Shown in pieces: positions 28,227 through 46,719 of a stretch of DNA of 64,000 nucleotides. Under the pieces are notes generated by a model. That model saw only the letters and a list, made by a program, of their open reading frames with translations, was not told the DNA's origin and made no database searches. Within the stretch, counting starts at the first letter, position 1. Every line of letters starts with the position of its first letter. This DNA comes from Actinomycetes bacterium (GTDB taxonomy: Bacteria > Actinomycetota > Thermoleophilia > BMS3ABIN01): contig JAJYOG010000003.1 in the NCBI GenBank assembly GCA_021785935.1, positions 104,850-168,849 on the forward strand. Direction: 5' to 3'. The translations under genes and the position numbers were made by a program.

Positions 28227-29690
28227 CTACCCCGGACTCACCGGTGTGCCGGGGCCGGTGTCAGAGGTACTGGTGGAAATGCGCACGGTCGTCCCACTCT
28301 GCATATCCTTGATGAAGACATCGGACTTCTTGTTGGTATCTCCTTCAACCAGGTTGGGCGCGCCGGAGTCGAAGGCAACGAAGCGCCCATCGGCGGAGAT
28401 TGAGGCGAACTCGCTCTTCCCCTGGCCAATAATGCCGGCGGAACTGGTGGATACCGGGCTAAGGGCGCCGGTCTGCATGTCCTTGAGGAAGACGTTAGTC
28501 TTGCCCGAAGTGGCGTTAGTGTCACCAGGCACCAGATTGGGCGCATCGGAGCTAAAGGCTACCCAGCGGCCATCAGCGGAGACGGATACCGACGAGTAGC
28601 TGTCCTCCTCACCCTGCGCTCCGGCAGCGCTCACCGAAACCAGTGAAAGCGCTCCACTCTGCATATCCTTAAGAAAGATATCGCGTTTGGCGTTATTGTC
28701 GTCGGGCACAAGATTATCCGCTGCGGAATCAAAGGCGACAAAACGTCCGCTGGCCGAGATAGCTAGCGATCCCAGGCCGCTGGCTTCATTTCCCTGACCC
28801 CCCGCTCCCACCGACACCCTGGTAAGAGCGCCTGTCTGGATGTCCTTAACGTAAACATCTATCTTGCCGTTGGTGTCATCCGGCGCCAGGTCAGTCGCAT
28901 CCGAAAGGAAGGCAACGAAACGGCCGTCGGTGGAGATGGACGGCTGGGCGCAATCCCCATTGCTCTCGGTACCGTCCGCCGCGACTGAGACACGGCTGAC
29001 CGCGCCGCTCTGCATATCCTTAAGGAAGATGTCTGACTTGCCATTGCCATCACCGGTAACGAGATTGGCTGCTGAGGAGCGGAAAGCCACGTAGCGTCCA
29101 TCGCCCGAGATAGCCGGATGATCGCTATCGCGATTGCCTTGCGCTCCGGCGGTGCTGGCTGAAACAATCCTGGTCTCACCGCTATTCAGGTTCTTGATAA
29201 AGACATCGGGGCAGTTCGTGTTGGTGCCGGCGGCGGACAGGCAATCGTTATTGGCATCACCCGCGGCCAAATTGGTGGCGGTCGAATCGAAGGCGACGAA
29301 GCGCCCATCCGCGGAGATCACCGGATTGTCACTGTCCCTGTTGCCATTGGCTCCATCAGAAGCCGTCGATGCGCGAGTGGTGACTCCGGTCTCTTTATCC
29401 TTGACATAGATACTATGGGCGCCGTTAGTGCTGCCAACTACAAGATTGGTGGCATCTGACCTGAAGGCAACCAGGCGGCCGTCGGCTGAGATAGACGGAT
29501 GCGAGCTGGCGGCATCACCCTGAACATCGGGCGGTATGGTCGTGCGGGTCTGTGTCTCCGTAGTAGAAGTGATGGCGCCGCAGCCAGCTGTAAATACTGA
29601 TATCGAAAACACCAGGGTCGCAATCAGCGCACCCAGGACCAGCGTCCCTGCTTTATCCCCGTTGATTTTTTCCACGAATGATCTTCCCCT
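28227..29690 (-). CDS. PD40/TolB-like beta-propeller repeat lipoprotein
   Basis: Repeated SADGRFVAFDSxAxNLVxGDTNxxxDVFxKDMQSG units. Lipobox FTAGCG. ORF extends to 29819; internal Met (MIRGRSF, ~29690) likelier. Confidence 0.8.
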   Translation of the reverse strand, partial: RGRSFVEKINGDKAGTLVLGALIATLVFSISVFTAGCGAITSTTETQTRTTIPPDVQGDAASSHPSISADGRLVAFRSDATNLVVGSTNGAHSIYVKDKETGVTTRASTASDGANGNRDSDNPVISADGRFVAFDSTATNLAAGDANNDCLSAAGTNTNCPDVFIKNLNSGETRIVSASTAGAQGNRDSDHPAISGDGRYVAFRSSAANLVTGDGNGKSDIFLKDMQSGAVSRVSVAADGTESNGDCAQPSISTDGRFVAFLSDATDLAPDDTNGKIDVYVKDIQTGALTRVSVGAGGQGNEASGLGSLAISASGRFVAFDSAADNLVPDDNNAKRDIFLKDMQSGALSLVSVSAAGAQGEEDSYSSVSVSADGRWVAFSSDAPNLVPGDTNATSGKTNVFLKDMQTGALSPVSTSSAGIIGQGKSEFASISADGRFVAFDSGAPNLVEGDTNKKSDVFIKDMQSGTTVRISTSTSDTGPGTPVSPG

Positions 29691-29935
29691 TATCATTTTT
29701 CTTAATCGAAAAATCCGGCGCCGGCGTTCAACCGAAGGTTGGATAATACGGCCCGGAAGCTCCTCCAGATGGCAGCGCGTACAAACACCAGAAGAAAAAG
29801 TACAGCGAAAAGGTGGCATTAGTCAATAATTCTGATATTTTTTACAGTCACCAGCGTTAGAAAATAGCAGGGATGCGGTAATATTGCTGGACGAGGCGCC
29901 GGCGCACCGCTTCCCCCAAAACACGGAGACAGAAA

Positions 29936-35939: not shown

Positions 35940-35990
35940 TCAGCGTAGAGACCCGCGAATCCCGAAGTGAAAATAACTGAGCAGTTATCC

Positions 35991-36452
35991 ATGAAATATA
36001 TTTCCGTCATCGGTGCTGGAGCAAGTGACCCGGCAACCGGCGCCCAGGCCGAAGAGGCCGGGCGTTTGATCGCGCGGGCCGGCGCCACCCTGATCTGCGG
36101 CGGTATGGGCGGCGTGATGGAAGCTGCCTGCCGAGGAGCCAAAGCTGAGGGCGGAGTCACCATCGGCATTCTCCCCGGGCTCGATCGCGGCAACGGCAAT
36201 CACTTTCTCGATTACTCCATCTGTACCGGGATAGGCCACGCCCGCAATCTGGCGGTCGCCGCCAGCGCCGATGTAGTCATCGCCATTGGCGGCGAATTCG
36301 GCACCCTGTCGGAGATCGGGCTGGCGCTCAAAGTAGGGCGAAGGGTAGTGCTGCTGCACAGCTGGGACGTGAGCAGAGACGGCGTCATCCCCGAAGGGCT
36401 ACTGGTATCCGACTCCGCCGAGAAGGCCCTGCTGCTAGCCCTGGAAGATTAG
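35991..36452 (+). CDS. TIGR00725/LOG-like Rossmann-fold protein
   Basis: ISVIGAGASDPATGAQAEEAGRLIARAGATLICGGMGGVMEAACRGAK...ARNLAVAASADVVIAIGGEFGTLSEI. Confidence 0.85.
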   Translation: MKYISVIGAGASDPATGAQAEEAGRLIARAGATLICGGMGGVMEAACRGAKAEGGVTIGILPGLDRGNGNHFLDYSICTGIGHARNLAVAASADVVIAIGGEFGTLSEIGLALKVGRRVVLLHSWDVSRDGVIPEGLLVSDSAEKALLLALED

Positions 36453-36455
36453 TCG

Positions 36456-36464
36456 TGATATACT
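36456..36464 (+). promoter_or_regulatory. Candidate extended -10 promoter for the 46-aa peptide gene
   Basis: TGATATACT (TGnTATACT) just after the upstream stop codon. Confidence 0.4.
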
Positions 36465-36535
36465 TCGCGATCACAGAAACTTTCTTGGTTTCTCGGGGCT
36501 GGGGGAATTGCGATCAGCAGGAGGGAGGAGTCGGG

Positions 36536-36676
36536 ATGAAGCAGACAAAGGGAGAATTCTACGTAAAACCCGTGCTAACCAAGCACGCGAGCCTGAAAGA
36601 ACTCACGTTCGAATGCCCAACATGGCAGTGCAGTGTTGCGGTACCGGGCTGGGATCCTAGTGGACCTCATTCGTAA
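36536..36676 (+). CDS. 46-aa RiPP-precursor-like peptide
   Basis: MKQTKGEFYVKPVLTKHASLKELTFECPTWQCSVAVPGWDPSGPHS. Strong RBS (aggagggaggag). Leader pattern YxxPxL...LT. Followed by a terminator. Confidence 0.6.
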   Translation: MKQTKGEFYVKPVLTKHASLKELTFECPTWQCSVAVPGWDPSGPHS

Positions 36677-36700
36677 GTAACGCCCACTCTTCAGAATTAT

Positions 36701-36731
36701 AAGAGGATGGCTTCGGCTGTCCTCTTTTTTT
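36701..36731 (+). terminator. Rho-independent terminator
   Basis: AAGAGGATGGC-TTCG-GCTGTCCTCTT plus T-run: 11-bp stem with UUCG loop. Confidence 0.9.
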
Positions 36732-36758: not shown

Positions 36759-37736
36759 TCAGGGATGATTGATGGCGGCAGCGCCTTCCTCACCGGCAGC
36801 CCGGACTTCGGCCAGAATCCTGTCGCCGCCGGCTTTGTACATACGCTGCGCCAGTCTTAATCCCAGCTCGGCGGCTTCCGCCGGCGGCCCCTGGATCCTG
36901 TCCTTGATGAAATCGGTTCCATCCAGCGATCCCAGGTATGCGTTCATGATCAGGTCACCGTCAAAGACCACGGCATGAGCACCGATCGGCACCTGGCAAC
37001 CACCCTCTAGCTCGCGCATGAGCGCGCGCTCGGCCATGACGGCAGCCGCGGCGTCCTCATCGTTAAAACATCCAAGCAGTTTGCTGACCAGGGGCTCGTC
37101 ATCCCTGGCTTCAATAGCGATTACCCCCTGGCCGACCGCGGGAATCATTTGCTCGGTGGTAAAGAAAAAAGAAGCTTCATCCTCCCGTTCCAGCCGCCGT
37201 ATGCCAGCCGCTGCCAGGATGGTGCCGTCCAGCTCCAGCTCGCCGATCTTCCTGATTCGGGTATCCACGTTGCCGCGGATGTCGACAACCTCAAGGTCGG
37301 GCCTCAAGGCTTTCAGTTGGGAACGGCGCCTGAGGCTGCTGGTGCCAACTTTGGCTCCCTGCGGAATATCGGCAAAGTTGCGAAGGCCTGAGTTGCCCGC
37401 GATAAATGCATCACGCGGATCTTCACGCCTGCCATATGCGGCGATTGCCAGGCCGACCGGGATCTCGGTAGGCAAATCCTTGCAACTGTGAACGCCGATA
37501 TCGATCTCGCCGGAGAGGAGCTCGTTCTCTATTTCCTTGACGAATAATCCCTTGTCGCCAATCTTCGCCAGCGGGGAATCGAGAATCTTGTCACCCGAGG
37601 TGGTGATGGTCTTGATCCTTACCGACACTTCGACGTGCTTTTTCTGAATGACCCAGGCGACGTGCCGCGCCTGGAAGAGGGCCAGCTCGCTCCCCCTGGT
37701 GCCCAAAGTTATTGAGTCAATCTTCGAGGTGTTCAC
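36759..37736 (-). CDS. hemC: Hydroxymethylbilane synthase
   Basis: LGTRGSELALFQARHV, HSCKDLPTEIPVGL, ELEGGCQVPIGAHA. Confidence 0.95.
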   Translation of the reverse strand: MNTSKIDSITLGTRGSELALFQARHVAWVIQKKHVEVSVRIKTITTSGDKILDSPLAKIGDKGLFVKEIENELLSGEIDIGVHSCKDLPTEIPVGLAIAAYGRREDPRDAFIAGNSGLRNFADIPQGAKVGTSSLRRRSQLKALRPDLEVVDIRGNVDTRIRKIGELELDGTILAAAGIRRLEREDEASFFFTTEQMIPAVGQGVIAIEARDDEPLVSKLLGCFNDEDAAAAVMAERALMRELEGGCQVPIGAHAVVFDGDLIMNAYLGSLDGTDFIKDRIQGPPAEAAELGLRLAQRMYKAGGDRILAEVRAAGEEGAAAINHP

Positions 37737-43946: not shown

Positions 43947-44795
43947 TTAATAATTGACATTATTATGGTCTGCGCCATGGCATGAAAGCGTACAGCTACC
44001 CGTGTGGTTGCCGCCATCGACGAAAGTCGGCCCTGAGTTGGCGATCAGTGAAGCGGTCACAAAGCTCGGATTAAATCGAACCAGCTCCGTAGAGGGAACT
44101 CCATGAGGGCTGTAATGACAGGCGATACAGGGAGCCTGATGGGTGATGATATGTGAATTATGCCTGCTGAAATAGGTCGTGTCGTTTATTATCGATGCGG
44201 TGCTGTGACACGACCAGCAGGCCTGGTAAGAATCCGGGTTGGGCGAGTAGGTAACGTAAGCCATGGTTTCGTAGCGGCCTCGCAGAAGCCGGCCGTAGCC
44301 GCTGTCCCCGTGAGGGTTGTGGCACTGACTGCAATTGTACGGCCCCAGCGGCGCAATACCGGCGGTGGTGTTGGGGGTGTAATTATACAAACCGTTGTTA
44401 TTGGCAAGATTGACGAAAATAGGGTGCATGGCGTTGGTGGAAGGATTTAGGTTCATCTGCGTTTCGATATTGAAATTCGATCCTGTCCCGTTATGACAGG
44501 TAAAACATAAAGCCGATTCAGGAGTACCGCGAAGAAGTTTGGCGCCTGGAGCTTCATGAGGACCATGGCATATCAGACATAACCGGGTTGAGTTGGAAAA
44601 ACCGCTGTGCGGGTTTGTGTATACCTGTGCCGCCGCAGACCCGCTGAAAAGCGCTGCGTGAATTGAAAATACTATTATTATCAAACCTGGCGCGAGAAGC
44701 ATTCTGAGCAGACCCGTTCGCAAACGAACCCGCCCAAAAACTTCCCGGCCAATAAAGCTCACTACCATATGTACATCCGTGAACGTGCCGGACAA
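43947..44795 (-). CDS. Multihaem c-type cytochrome (cytochrome c3/doubled-CXXCH type)
   Basis: CLICH, CFTCH, CSQCH, CWSCH, CIACH plus CTLSCH (CX3CH). Signal/TM near N-terminus. Confidence 0.9.
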   Translation of the reverse strand: MSGTFTDVHMVVSFIGREVFGRVRLRTGLLRMLLAPGLIIIVFSIHAALFSGSAAAQVYTNPHSGFSNSTRLCLICHGPHEAPGAKLLRGTPESALCFTCHNGTGSNFNIETQMNLNPSTNAMHPIFVNLANNNGLYNYTPNTTAGIAPLGPYNCSQCHNPHGDSGYGRLLRGRYETMAYVTYSPNPDSYQACWSCHSTASIINDTTYFSRHNSHIITHQAPCIACHYSPHGVPSTELVRFNPSFVTASLIANSGPTFVDGGNHTGSCTLSCHGADHNNVNY

Positions 44796-44947
44796 TCGCC
44801 GACTTCAACTGGGAACGAAAAGTTCTTCCCCCGCATCCTGCTAACCCTTGTCCGAATGACCGGAGTCCGAGATGTTTCCGGTAACCATAGCGGCTCAAAT
44901 AAGTATGAATGAATTTTTCCTGTATATCCAGCACTTCTCAGACATCG

Positions 44948-45520
44948 CTATGGACTAGTCTGACCTTGATCGGTTGAATTGGGAATAGTGCTGGTGGCAC
45001 TGGGAGAGAGGATCAAATTGATCTTCCATCGTCCGTCCTCTTCCACTACCGCCAACGCGTAATTCTTGTGTTCGGTTTTAGGCTCTTCCAGGGCAACGCC
45101 GGTATTTGCGTCCACATAATAACCGCCGTCGTCGAATTCGGCCGAGACCTCCGCGACGGGCAAAGAAAAGGACGTCGTATGTACGCTGATATTCTGATAA
45201 TCCCGTTTCCGGCATTTTCCCTGAGCGAGGTCCTTGCCCACAGCCGCCTTGGTCTCGGTCAGCGCCTTGCCGTTCATCGCCTGGCTGAGCCCAGCGGTGT
45301 CAGCTCCGGTCTGTCCGATAATTCGCAGGTCATCAGTAACATCGGCCACGATCTTTGCCTGGACTTCGGGCGATACCATATGAACCGAAGTATGCGCCTC
45401 ATCTGTCTGCGTCGAATCCGGGAAAGAATTATCTCCACATGAGACCGCTGCCAGCGCCAGTAACATTATAACCATCATAACAGCCAACCTGCGCAATATA
45501 TTTAACACGTTCCCTTTCAT
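44948..45520 (-). CDS. Putative lipoprotein
   Basis: MLLALAAVSCGDNSF lipobox. Terminal DGRWKINLIL. Confidence 0.65.
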   Translation of the reverse strand: MKGNVLNILRRLAVMMVIMLLALAAVSCGDNSFPDSTQTDEAHTSVHMVSPEVQAKIVADVTDDLRIIGQTGADTAGLSQAMNGKALTETKAAVGKDLAQGKCRKRDYQNISVHTTSFSLPVAEVSAEFDDGGYYVDANTGVALEEPKTEHKNYALAVVEEDGRWKINLILSPSATSTIPNSTDQGQTSP

Positions 45521-45588
45521 TTGTTTGGGAGAGGCGCCTTGAAGGGCGCCCCTCCCAATTAATTCTACCTTCTACCAACCGGCCCGGA

Positions 45589-46437
45589 TTAGGGCAGGGT
45601 TGCTCCACTGTGACATATGAGACACAGAGCATCCGGCTCCTCAAAGAGAATTCTCTGATTGGTGCTCGAATGCGGGAAGTCAGACTCACCAGCCTTATTG
45701 GCATGACAGGTCAGACAGTAAGCCTGCGCGGGGTGATTCCGTTCCACGCCCACGTTGTCGCGCTTGTCGTGACACTTAACGCAGAAGCCGTACTCGTCAC
45801 TTGCCGCAGGTGCAGTAGTGCTATGGTTCGGCTGCTTCGAAAGCAGTTTGGAACCGGTGATCACCTGACCGAGTTCGCTATGCGGTGTGTGGCAGGAAGC
45901 GCAATACAGGCCCTGGGTGCCGGTGAACGTAGTCACCGCTTGTCCGCCGTACAGGCCCTCAGTCGGACCGCCGTACTGGCCGGAGGTCATGACCTTCAGA
46001 TCAACGCTGCCACCAGGAATGGTATTCGATGACCGCGCGACGGTGCCACCCATCATTACGCCGAGACTGTGGCCAGGAACTGCGTCCTGCGCCGGTCCAA
46101 GCATGCCTGACGTGAAGCCGTACTTGTAAGCCGCCTTAATCGAACCAGTCGGATCCGTACCGGCCATGTCTGTGGGGGGGTTACCCCATGAAACAGGGAC
46201 GTTACCTGGAGCCGGAGCTCCAAAAAGACCGTGGCAAGTACCGCATACACCCGTAACGGTCGACGCACGCGTCAGCACATAATCACCGCTCGCCTCATGG
46301 ATATCGTGGCAGCTAATACAGAAATCAGTAGTAGGCCCGAAACCCGTGTGAGGACTGGTGGCGAATGCTGAGGCGGAAAAAGCCAGCATGAAAACAACCG
46401 ACAGCACGATGGCAGCCATAATCGCTATTTTTCGCAT
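45589..46437 (-). CDS. Hexahaem c-type cytochrome (cytochrome c3 family)
   Basis: MRKIAIMAAIVLSVVFMLAFSASAFA signal. CISCH, CGTCH, CASCH, CVKCH, CLTCH, CLICH. RBS aggaggtgac. Confidence 0.92.
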   Translation of the reverse strand: MRKIAIMAAIVLSVVFMLAFSASAFATSPHTGFGPTTDFCISCHDIHEASGDYVLTRASTVTGVCGTCHGLFGAPAPGNVPVSWGNPPTDMAGTDPTGSIKAAYKYGFTSGMLGPAQDAVPGHSLGVMMGGTVARSSNTIPGGSVDLKVMTSGQYGGPTEGLYGGQAVTTFTGTQGLYCASCHTPHSELGQVITGSKLLSKQPNHSTTAPAASDEYGFCVKCHDKRDNVGVERNHPAQAYCLTCHANKAGESDFPHSSTNQRILFEEPDALCLICHSGATLP

Positions 46438-46719
46438 ATTGTCACCTCCTTTCGCTTTTTTTTCGCCTGAATTGTGAACTAAGTCACAAAGAAGGCGTAC
46501 AACCACGTTTCCCCGAACTTATGACGCTGGGGGCATCAAAAAATCTGGGTACGCGTAGTAGCCAAATGGAGGTTGCAGCTATAGTGCCCTGCGGGGGCTT
46601 TGATGAATGCTACTTACTGAGGTACTTCATAGTAATCTAACTGTATCAACTGTCCGCTTCCGCACGAGTGTCCACTATTGAGCCCGCATTGACTGCAACG
46701 CATACTACCCTGGGTATAA

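Follow-up and report, generated by a model that had tools for sequence, protein, structure and literature searches.

A lineage-restricted peptide family with lasso-type leaders is encoded at many loci, often beside exported proteins that share a C-terminal domain

A 46-aa open reading frame set between two conserved genes raises the question of what its product is, and of which proteins might process or use it. The frame lies in a 64,000-nucleotide stretch of an Actinomycetes bacterium genome (the window; contig JAJYOG010000003.1, positions 104,850 to 168,849), taken from an assembly of 1.86 Mb that is 79% complete (G000). A first-pass annotation had described a self-contained gene with an extended -10-like element, a strong ribosome-binding site and an 11-pair UUCG terminator, all of which are present in the sequence, and had seen in its product a RiPP precursor with a lasso-type leader. 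The features are as follows, in window coordinates.

35967..36452, + strand: upstream neighbour, which we take to encode a TIGR00725-like (lysine decarboxylase-like) protein; conserved beside the solo peptide copy
36456..36464, + strand: extended -10-like element TGATATACT, with a TGATA or TGGTA counterpart kept in relatives
36520..36529, + strand: Shine-Dalgarno sequence GGAGGGAGGA, kept as GGAGGGAGGAGTGGGG in same-genus orthologs
36536..36676, + strand: gene for the putative 46-aa precursor peptide, MKQTKGEFYVKPVLTKHASLKELTFECPTWQCSVAVPGWDPSGPHS; a solo family copy between the TIGR00725-like gene and hemC, in a conserved arrangement
36536..36610, + strand: predicted leader, residues 1-25, with Y9, P12, L14 and T24 at lasso positions -17, -14, -12 and -2
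36611..36673, + strand: predicted core ECPTWQCSVAVPGWDPSGPHS, residues 26-46, given the predicted cleavage site
36701..36726, + strand: intrinsic terminator, a UUCG hairpin with an 11-pair stem followed by a T tract
36759..37736, - strand: convergent neighbour, presumably hemC; conserved beside the solo peptide copy

The frame runs from ATG 36536 to a TAA at 36674-36676 and stays open in the 5' direction to a GTG at 36455 (73 aa); the ATG was preferred because the position of the ribosome-binding site and the homologues favour it. The terminator stem scored -17 kcal/mol (z -4.3). Comparison of orthologs revealed a TTGTCAAA element upstream of the TGATA element in relatives. It is absent from the window, where the upstream gene extends over this site at its 3' end and so leaves a weak -35, and a scan for promoter consensus sequences gave no + strand hit anywhere in the window, TGATATACT included. 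Among eleven synteny orthologs, mean pS was 0.63 and mean pN 0.13 over the 30 codons compared, and therefore purifying selection acts on the protein. Conservation only at the level of DNA structure, an outcome that the first-pass annotation had allowed for, is thus not the case; a structured RNA was likewise rejected, with no Rfam match and synonymous sites that vary. Both neighbouring genes are probably outside the peptide system. Since the window copy adjoins hem genes, a heme-regulatory CP motif was also considered, and was discarded because the Pro is Ser or Ala in many genomes. Elsewhere in the window, positions 43947-46506 (- strand) encode putative multiheme cytochrome-like proteins with several CxxCH motifs near ccs/hem genes, and positions 28227-29819 (- strand) a TolB-like repeat protein of 530 aa, whose called ORF includes a long N-terminal extension.

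The frame is not a chance ORF, because the window genome holds four further copies, 41-76% identical to the window peptide, and each of the other 18 genomes in its GTDB family has homologues. The five copies in the window genome were recovered by single-sequence search, and more by profile. The profile search detected the peptide family in 19 of 19 genomes of the GTDB family, at about 3-12 copies each, and in 0 of 380 genomes from elsewhere in the class. Named matches came from uncultured Thermoleophilia, Gaiellales and Actinomycetes MAGs and from bacterium BMS3Abin01; the family is restricted to one lineage of uncultured bacteria, mostly from the deep subsurface. Its consensus is Y.KP.L.KH.NLKDITFECPxWQCSVxVPPPPA. 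The leader residues and the two Cys that the first-pass annotation had singled out proved to be conserved: Y, P, L and T of the leader show little or no variation in 44 members, the Cys32-Ser33 pair within WxCS does not vary across 121 core sequences, and Cys27 is present in 117 of them (97%). A second subfamily (L311-L327, e.g. L312:5879, L314:1951, L324:5124), with a member in the window genome (G000:C9; L036:9796-9939), has the same leader and mostly WxCS, with tails rich in Asp, Gly, His or Ser. FxCSI replaces WxCSV in the core of another solo ortholog group (L117, L132, L146, L159, L162, L168, L169), whose members follow an EF-G-like gene.

If cleavage falls after Thr-Phe, as we infer, the window leader places Tyr at -17, Pro at -14, Leu at -12 and Thr at -2, the same leader positions that have been studied for lasso maturation in Bradymonas, where the kinase, B1 and B2 of the bsf clusters act on such a leader (PMC10368454). 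At -2, Thr here stands against Ile in bsf. The NCBIfam model lasso_leader_L3 (NF033521) gave the window peptide 17.7 bits, below its cut-off of 19, and matched 10 of 44 family members at E<=0.05. With the same predicted cleavage site, the window core begins E1 C2 P3 T4 W5 Q6 C7 S8 V9 and has no Asp or Glu at positions 7-9; across the family, C7 and S8 are invariant and position 9 is V, I or Y. Across 15 GTDB-family genomes, no match to the lasso cyclase model (NF033535) exceeded its cut-off, G008 gave no match at all despite many peptides, and no cyclase gene was found near the B1-B2 loci. The missing acid and the lack of any gene reaching the cyclase cut-off, or of one adjacent, set the system apart from bsf, and on these two grounds a classical lasso peptide was rejected, a conclusion that the first-pass annotation had already drawn from the core acid. 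The peptide system resembles the front half of a lasso pathway and departs from lasso systems in the core acid and the cyclase.

Candidate maturation genes are encoded away from the peptide. A lasso-type B2 peptidase (PF13471) was found in 16 of the 19 genomes of the GTDB family and adjoins a PqqD-type B1 in 15; in the loci read, an HprK-like kinase gene lies upstream of B1, with a gene for a DUF2079 protein or a nucleotidyltransferase downstream. In the one case scanned, B2 scored over the NCBIfam lasso cut-off, and B1 and the kinase were related but below theirs. The kinase carries His, GxxGxGKS and DD at the spacing reported for BsfK (PMC10368454). Leader spacing, a discrete RRE protein (B1), a B2 peptidase, the kinase motifs and, in some loci, a nearby NTP_transf_5 gene are thus shared with the phosphorylated lasso clusters (bsf) of Bradymonas, in which K, B1, B2 and a nucleotidyltransferase are likewise discrete (PMC10368454). 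At the level of sequence, homology, the exact leader spacing, the presence of RRE, B2 and kinase in nearly all relatives and the conserved Cys27 and Cys32-Ser33 strengthened the proposal of a RiPP precursor with a lasso-type leader.

As had been noted, no maturase gene adjoins the window peptide gene, and none of the loci read places B1-B2 next to such a gene. The K-B1-B2 block was not found in the window genome's assembly (79% complete); hemW and the DUF2079 gene, between which the block lies in relatives, are missing along with the kinase, so that an assembly gap is likely. In G018 (92% complete), B1 was present and B2 was not detected. A paralog of the kinase, 35-40% identical, occurs inside some peptide/exported-protein clusters. 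Five clusters (L038, L039, L041, L046, L047) share an arrangement, conserved across genera, of an exported domain protein, a peptide, a ~190-aa lipoprotein-like protein, an HprK-like kinase, a second exported protein and a peptide.

Looking further afield for RRE/PqqD-like and radical SAM genes, as the first-pass annotation had suggested, turned up one such locus in the window genome, with no positional tie to the peptide. This locus (L073:6778-9095; G000:C29 about 80.8-83.1 kb, left of the window) encodes an rSAM/SPASM protein, a PqqD-like protein and an ScmC-like kinase, and adjoins genes for an S26-type peptidase and an exported protein with the C-terminal domain described below. Having these three proteins together recalls the SynChlorMet cassette (NCBIfam TIGR04248-TIGR04251), from which the window-genome proteins differ in that lack of a positional tie and in scores that, where scanned, fell far short of the family cut-offs (40.8 bits for the ScmC-like kinase, cut-off 125; 93.4 for the rSAM protein with ScmE, cut-off 400). 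The peptide could be matured here, by the rSAM/SPASM, PqqD-like, ScmC-like and S26-type proteins (about 79-83 kb), rather than by K-B1-B2: this is the sole RRE locus seen in the window genome, and a domain protein is encoded beside the rSAM locus in L073, L082 and L091. This reading is very unlikely, however, given seven genomes (G003, G004, G005, G009, G013, G016, G018) that have many peptides and whose single PqqD match is the one in the K-B1-B2 locus. Domain proteins adjoin nine of the fetched K/B1/B2 loci as well as the three rSAM-PqqD loci.

The recurrent companion of the peptide is an exported protein. Upstream sequence was available for 119 peptide rows, a few of which repeat one gene; in 81 of them the peptide gene directly follows one for a protein with a shared C-terminal domain of ~110 aa, at a median distance of about 80 nt. 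The remaining 38 are unpaired and include the window ortholog group (TIGR00725-like/peptide/hemC) and the group behind the EF-G-like gene. An N-terminal hydrophobic segment is present in 60 of 61 paired domain proteins, which are otherwise varied (beta-helix, rhodanese, Ig-like, phosphatase-N-like and weakly beta-propeller-like). The domain is nearly confined to the GTDB family and occurs 11-39 times per genome against about 3-12 peptides, so that most domain proteins have no adjacent peptide gene. None is encoded inside the window, and the domain was not matched in the TolB-like repeat protein. AlphaFold2 modelled the domain as a beta sandwich (pLDDT 94.8) that appears Ig-like from strand order and weak matches, with no PDB match at E<0.001. 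Weak matches to the Ig-like surface domains DUF11 and CARDB (Pfam) point to a likely similar fold, whereas scores below their cut-offs and a distinctive W....DY segment with lineage-specific residues distinguish it.

PEP-CTERM/exosortase and LPXTG/sortase are C-terminal sorting-domain systems, and the present family is like them in that many unrelated exported proteins carry one lineage-restricted C-terminal domain. Unlike theirs, the domain here is a predicted Ig-like sandwich with short tails at most and a peptide gene next to it: nearly all paired rows have 0-9 residues after it, with ends such as YTYP or YPGP, and no tail of motif, hydrophobic stretch and basic residues was found on the paired exported proteins.

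This pairing bears on two other readings of the peptide. It could act whole and uncut, as a small adaptor that binds exported proteins ahead of or in the course of their export; the likeness of its leader to lasso leaders would then be coincidental, or the leader would be just an RRE docking motif. The peptide gene does adjoin that of its partner, and processing is itself a prediction from sequence; the exact fit of the leader to lasso positions and the lasso-type B1-B2 pair in nearly every genome of the GTDB family nonetheless make an unmodified adaptor quite unlikely. Alternatively, the processed core could be a free signal, a lineage-specific pheromone (pherotype) for which many identical-core copies raise the dose, with the exported proteins co-regulated and not bound. 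A core that is alike at most copies within a genome and differs between genomes would suit a pheromone, as would a solo window copy with its own ribosome-binding site and terminator. We consider it unlikely in view of the persistent position behind exported proteins with one C-terminal domain and of the loci read, in which the solo copy has no recurrent receptor or transporter as a neighbour.

The similarity of cores within genomes is itself pronounced. The residues between Cys and Trp, at most copies per genome, are PT in the window genome (G000), PN in G001, PA in G002 and G006, PQ in G005, PD in G007, SN in G008 and G017, AN in G013 and G015, and SG in G016 and G018. Identity at x of CPxW was 0.56 within genomes and 0.19 between them (0/300 shuffles). 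Ortholog groups that span genomes were set by leader or upstream-gene (synteny) patterns written by the analyst; between five such groups, x of ECPxWQCS agreed in the same genome in 76 of 88 comparisons, against 0.26 with genomes shuffled (0/2000 reached the observed value). The window group agreed with groups S and E in 14/14 comparisons each, and the effect persisted when each of two genera was taken separately. Within a genome, the predicted cores vary in concert across the copies, as though constrained by a single common partner.

Gene conversion commonly homogenises paralogs, and core sameness might therefore reflect mere recent duplication or conversion, with no functional meaning. Against this, the ortholog groups, defined by synteny or leader, span genomes; codons for the same core amino acid were identical at 0.63 within and 0.62 between genomes, and leader positions showed no within-genome excess except at the residue before T-2. 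Because leaders and synonymous codons have no genome effect, recent gene conversion is unlikely; we rejected it as the cause of core sameness on these controls, and hold duplication or conversion without function to be highly improbable.

Genome-specific columns of the C-terminal domain fall mainly at 20-26, with YADY in most P-x genomes and LSDY in the genus with S/A-x cores. This covariation of domain and core is suggestive and rests on few independent clade contrasts.

We favour, at a probability of about 0.55, an RRE-guided, cleaved and perhaps phosphorylated peptide that serves exported surface proteins; leader binding, cleavage, phosphorylation and contact with the domain are steps that we infer. 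The discrete RRE protein B1 would bind the YxxPxL leader in trans, Ser33, which is invariant, may be phosphorylated by the HprK-like kinase, and a cut after Thr-Phe by the B2 peptidase would release a core of ~21 aa without lasso closure. Once mature, this core would serve exported, surface-destined proteins, most simply by docking on or attachment to their C-terminal Ig-like domain. We propose that a single maturase or partner set acts for every copy in a genome, which would explain why their cores change jointly. The multi-copy family, the trans-acting candidate maturase, the pairing with exported proteins and the genome-wide core change were all invisible to the first-pass annotation. The dispersal of precursor genes around the genome, their pairing with exported proteins and their coordinated cores also distinguish this system from bsf, and in open-licence papers we found no precedent for a peptide/exported-protein pairing or for RiPP precursors that evolve in concert.

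Collectively, these findings tie a large exported-protein family of an uncultured lineage to RiPP-type machinery (RRE, B2 peptidase and HprK-like kinase) and suggest a use for kinase-RRE-peptidase sets that have no cyclase. Peptide-partner co-evolution can be tested directly in this unusual case, in which a short core changes jointly at many unlinked loci and nothing points to gene conversion. A bolder and rather unlikely extension is a lineage-specific surface code, in which columns 20-26 of the C-terminal domain, carried by dozens of exported proteins per genome, would read the RRE-processed, possibly phosphorylated peptide through variable residues set genome-wide and changing in concert; if it were true, surface assembly or cell-cell recognition would need a matching peptide and domain.
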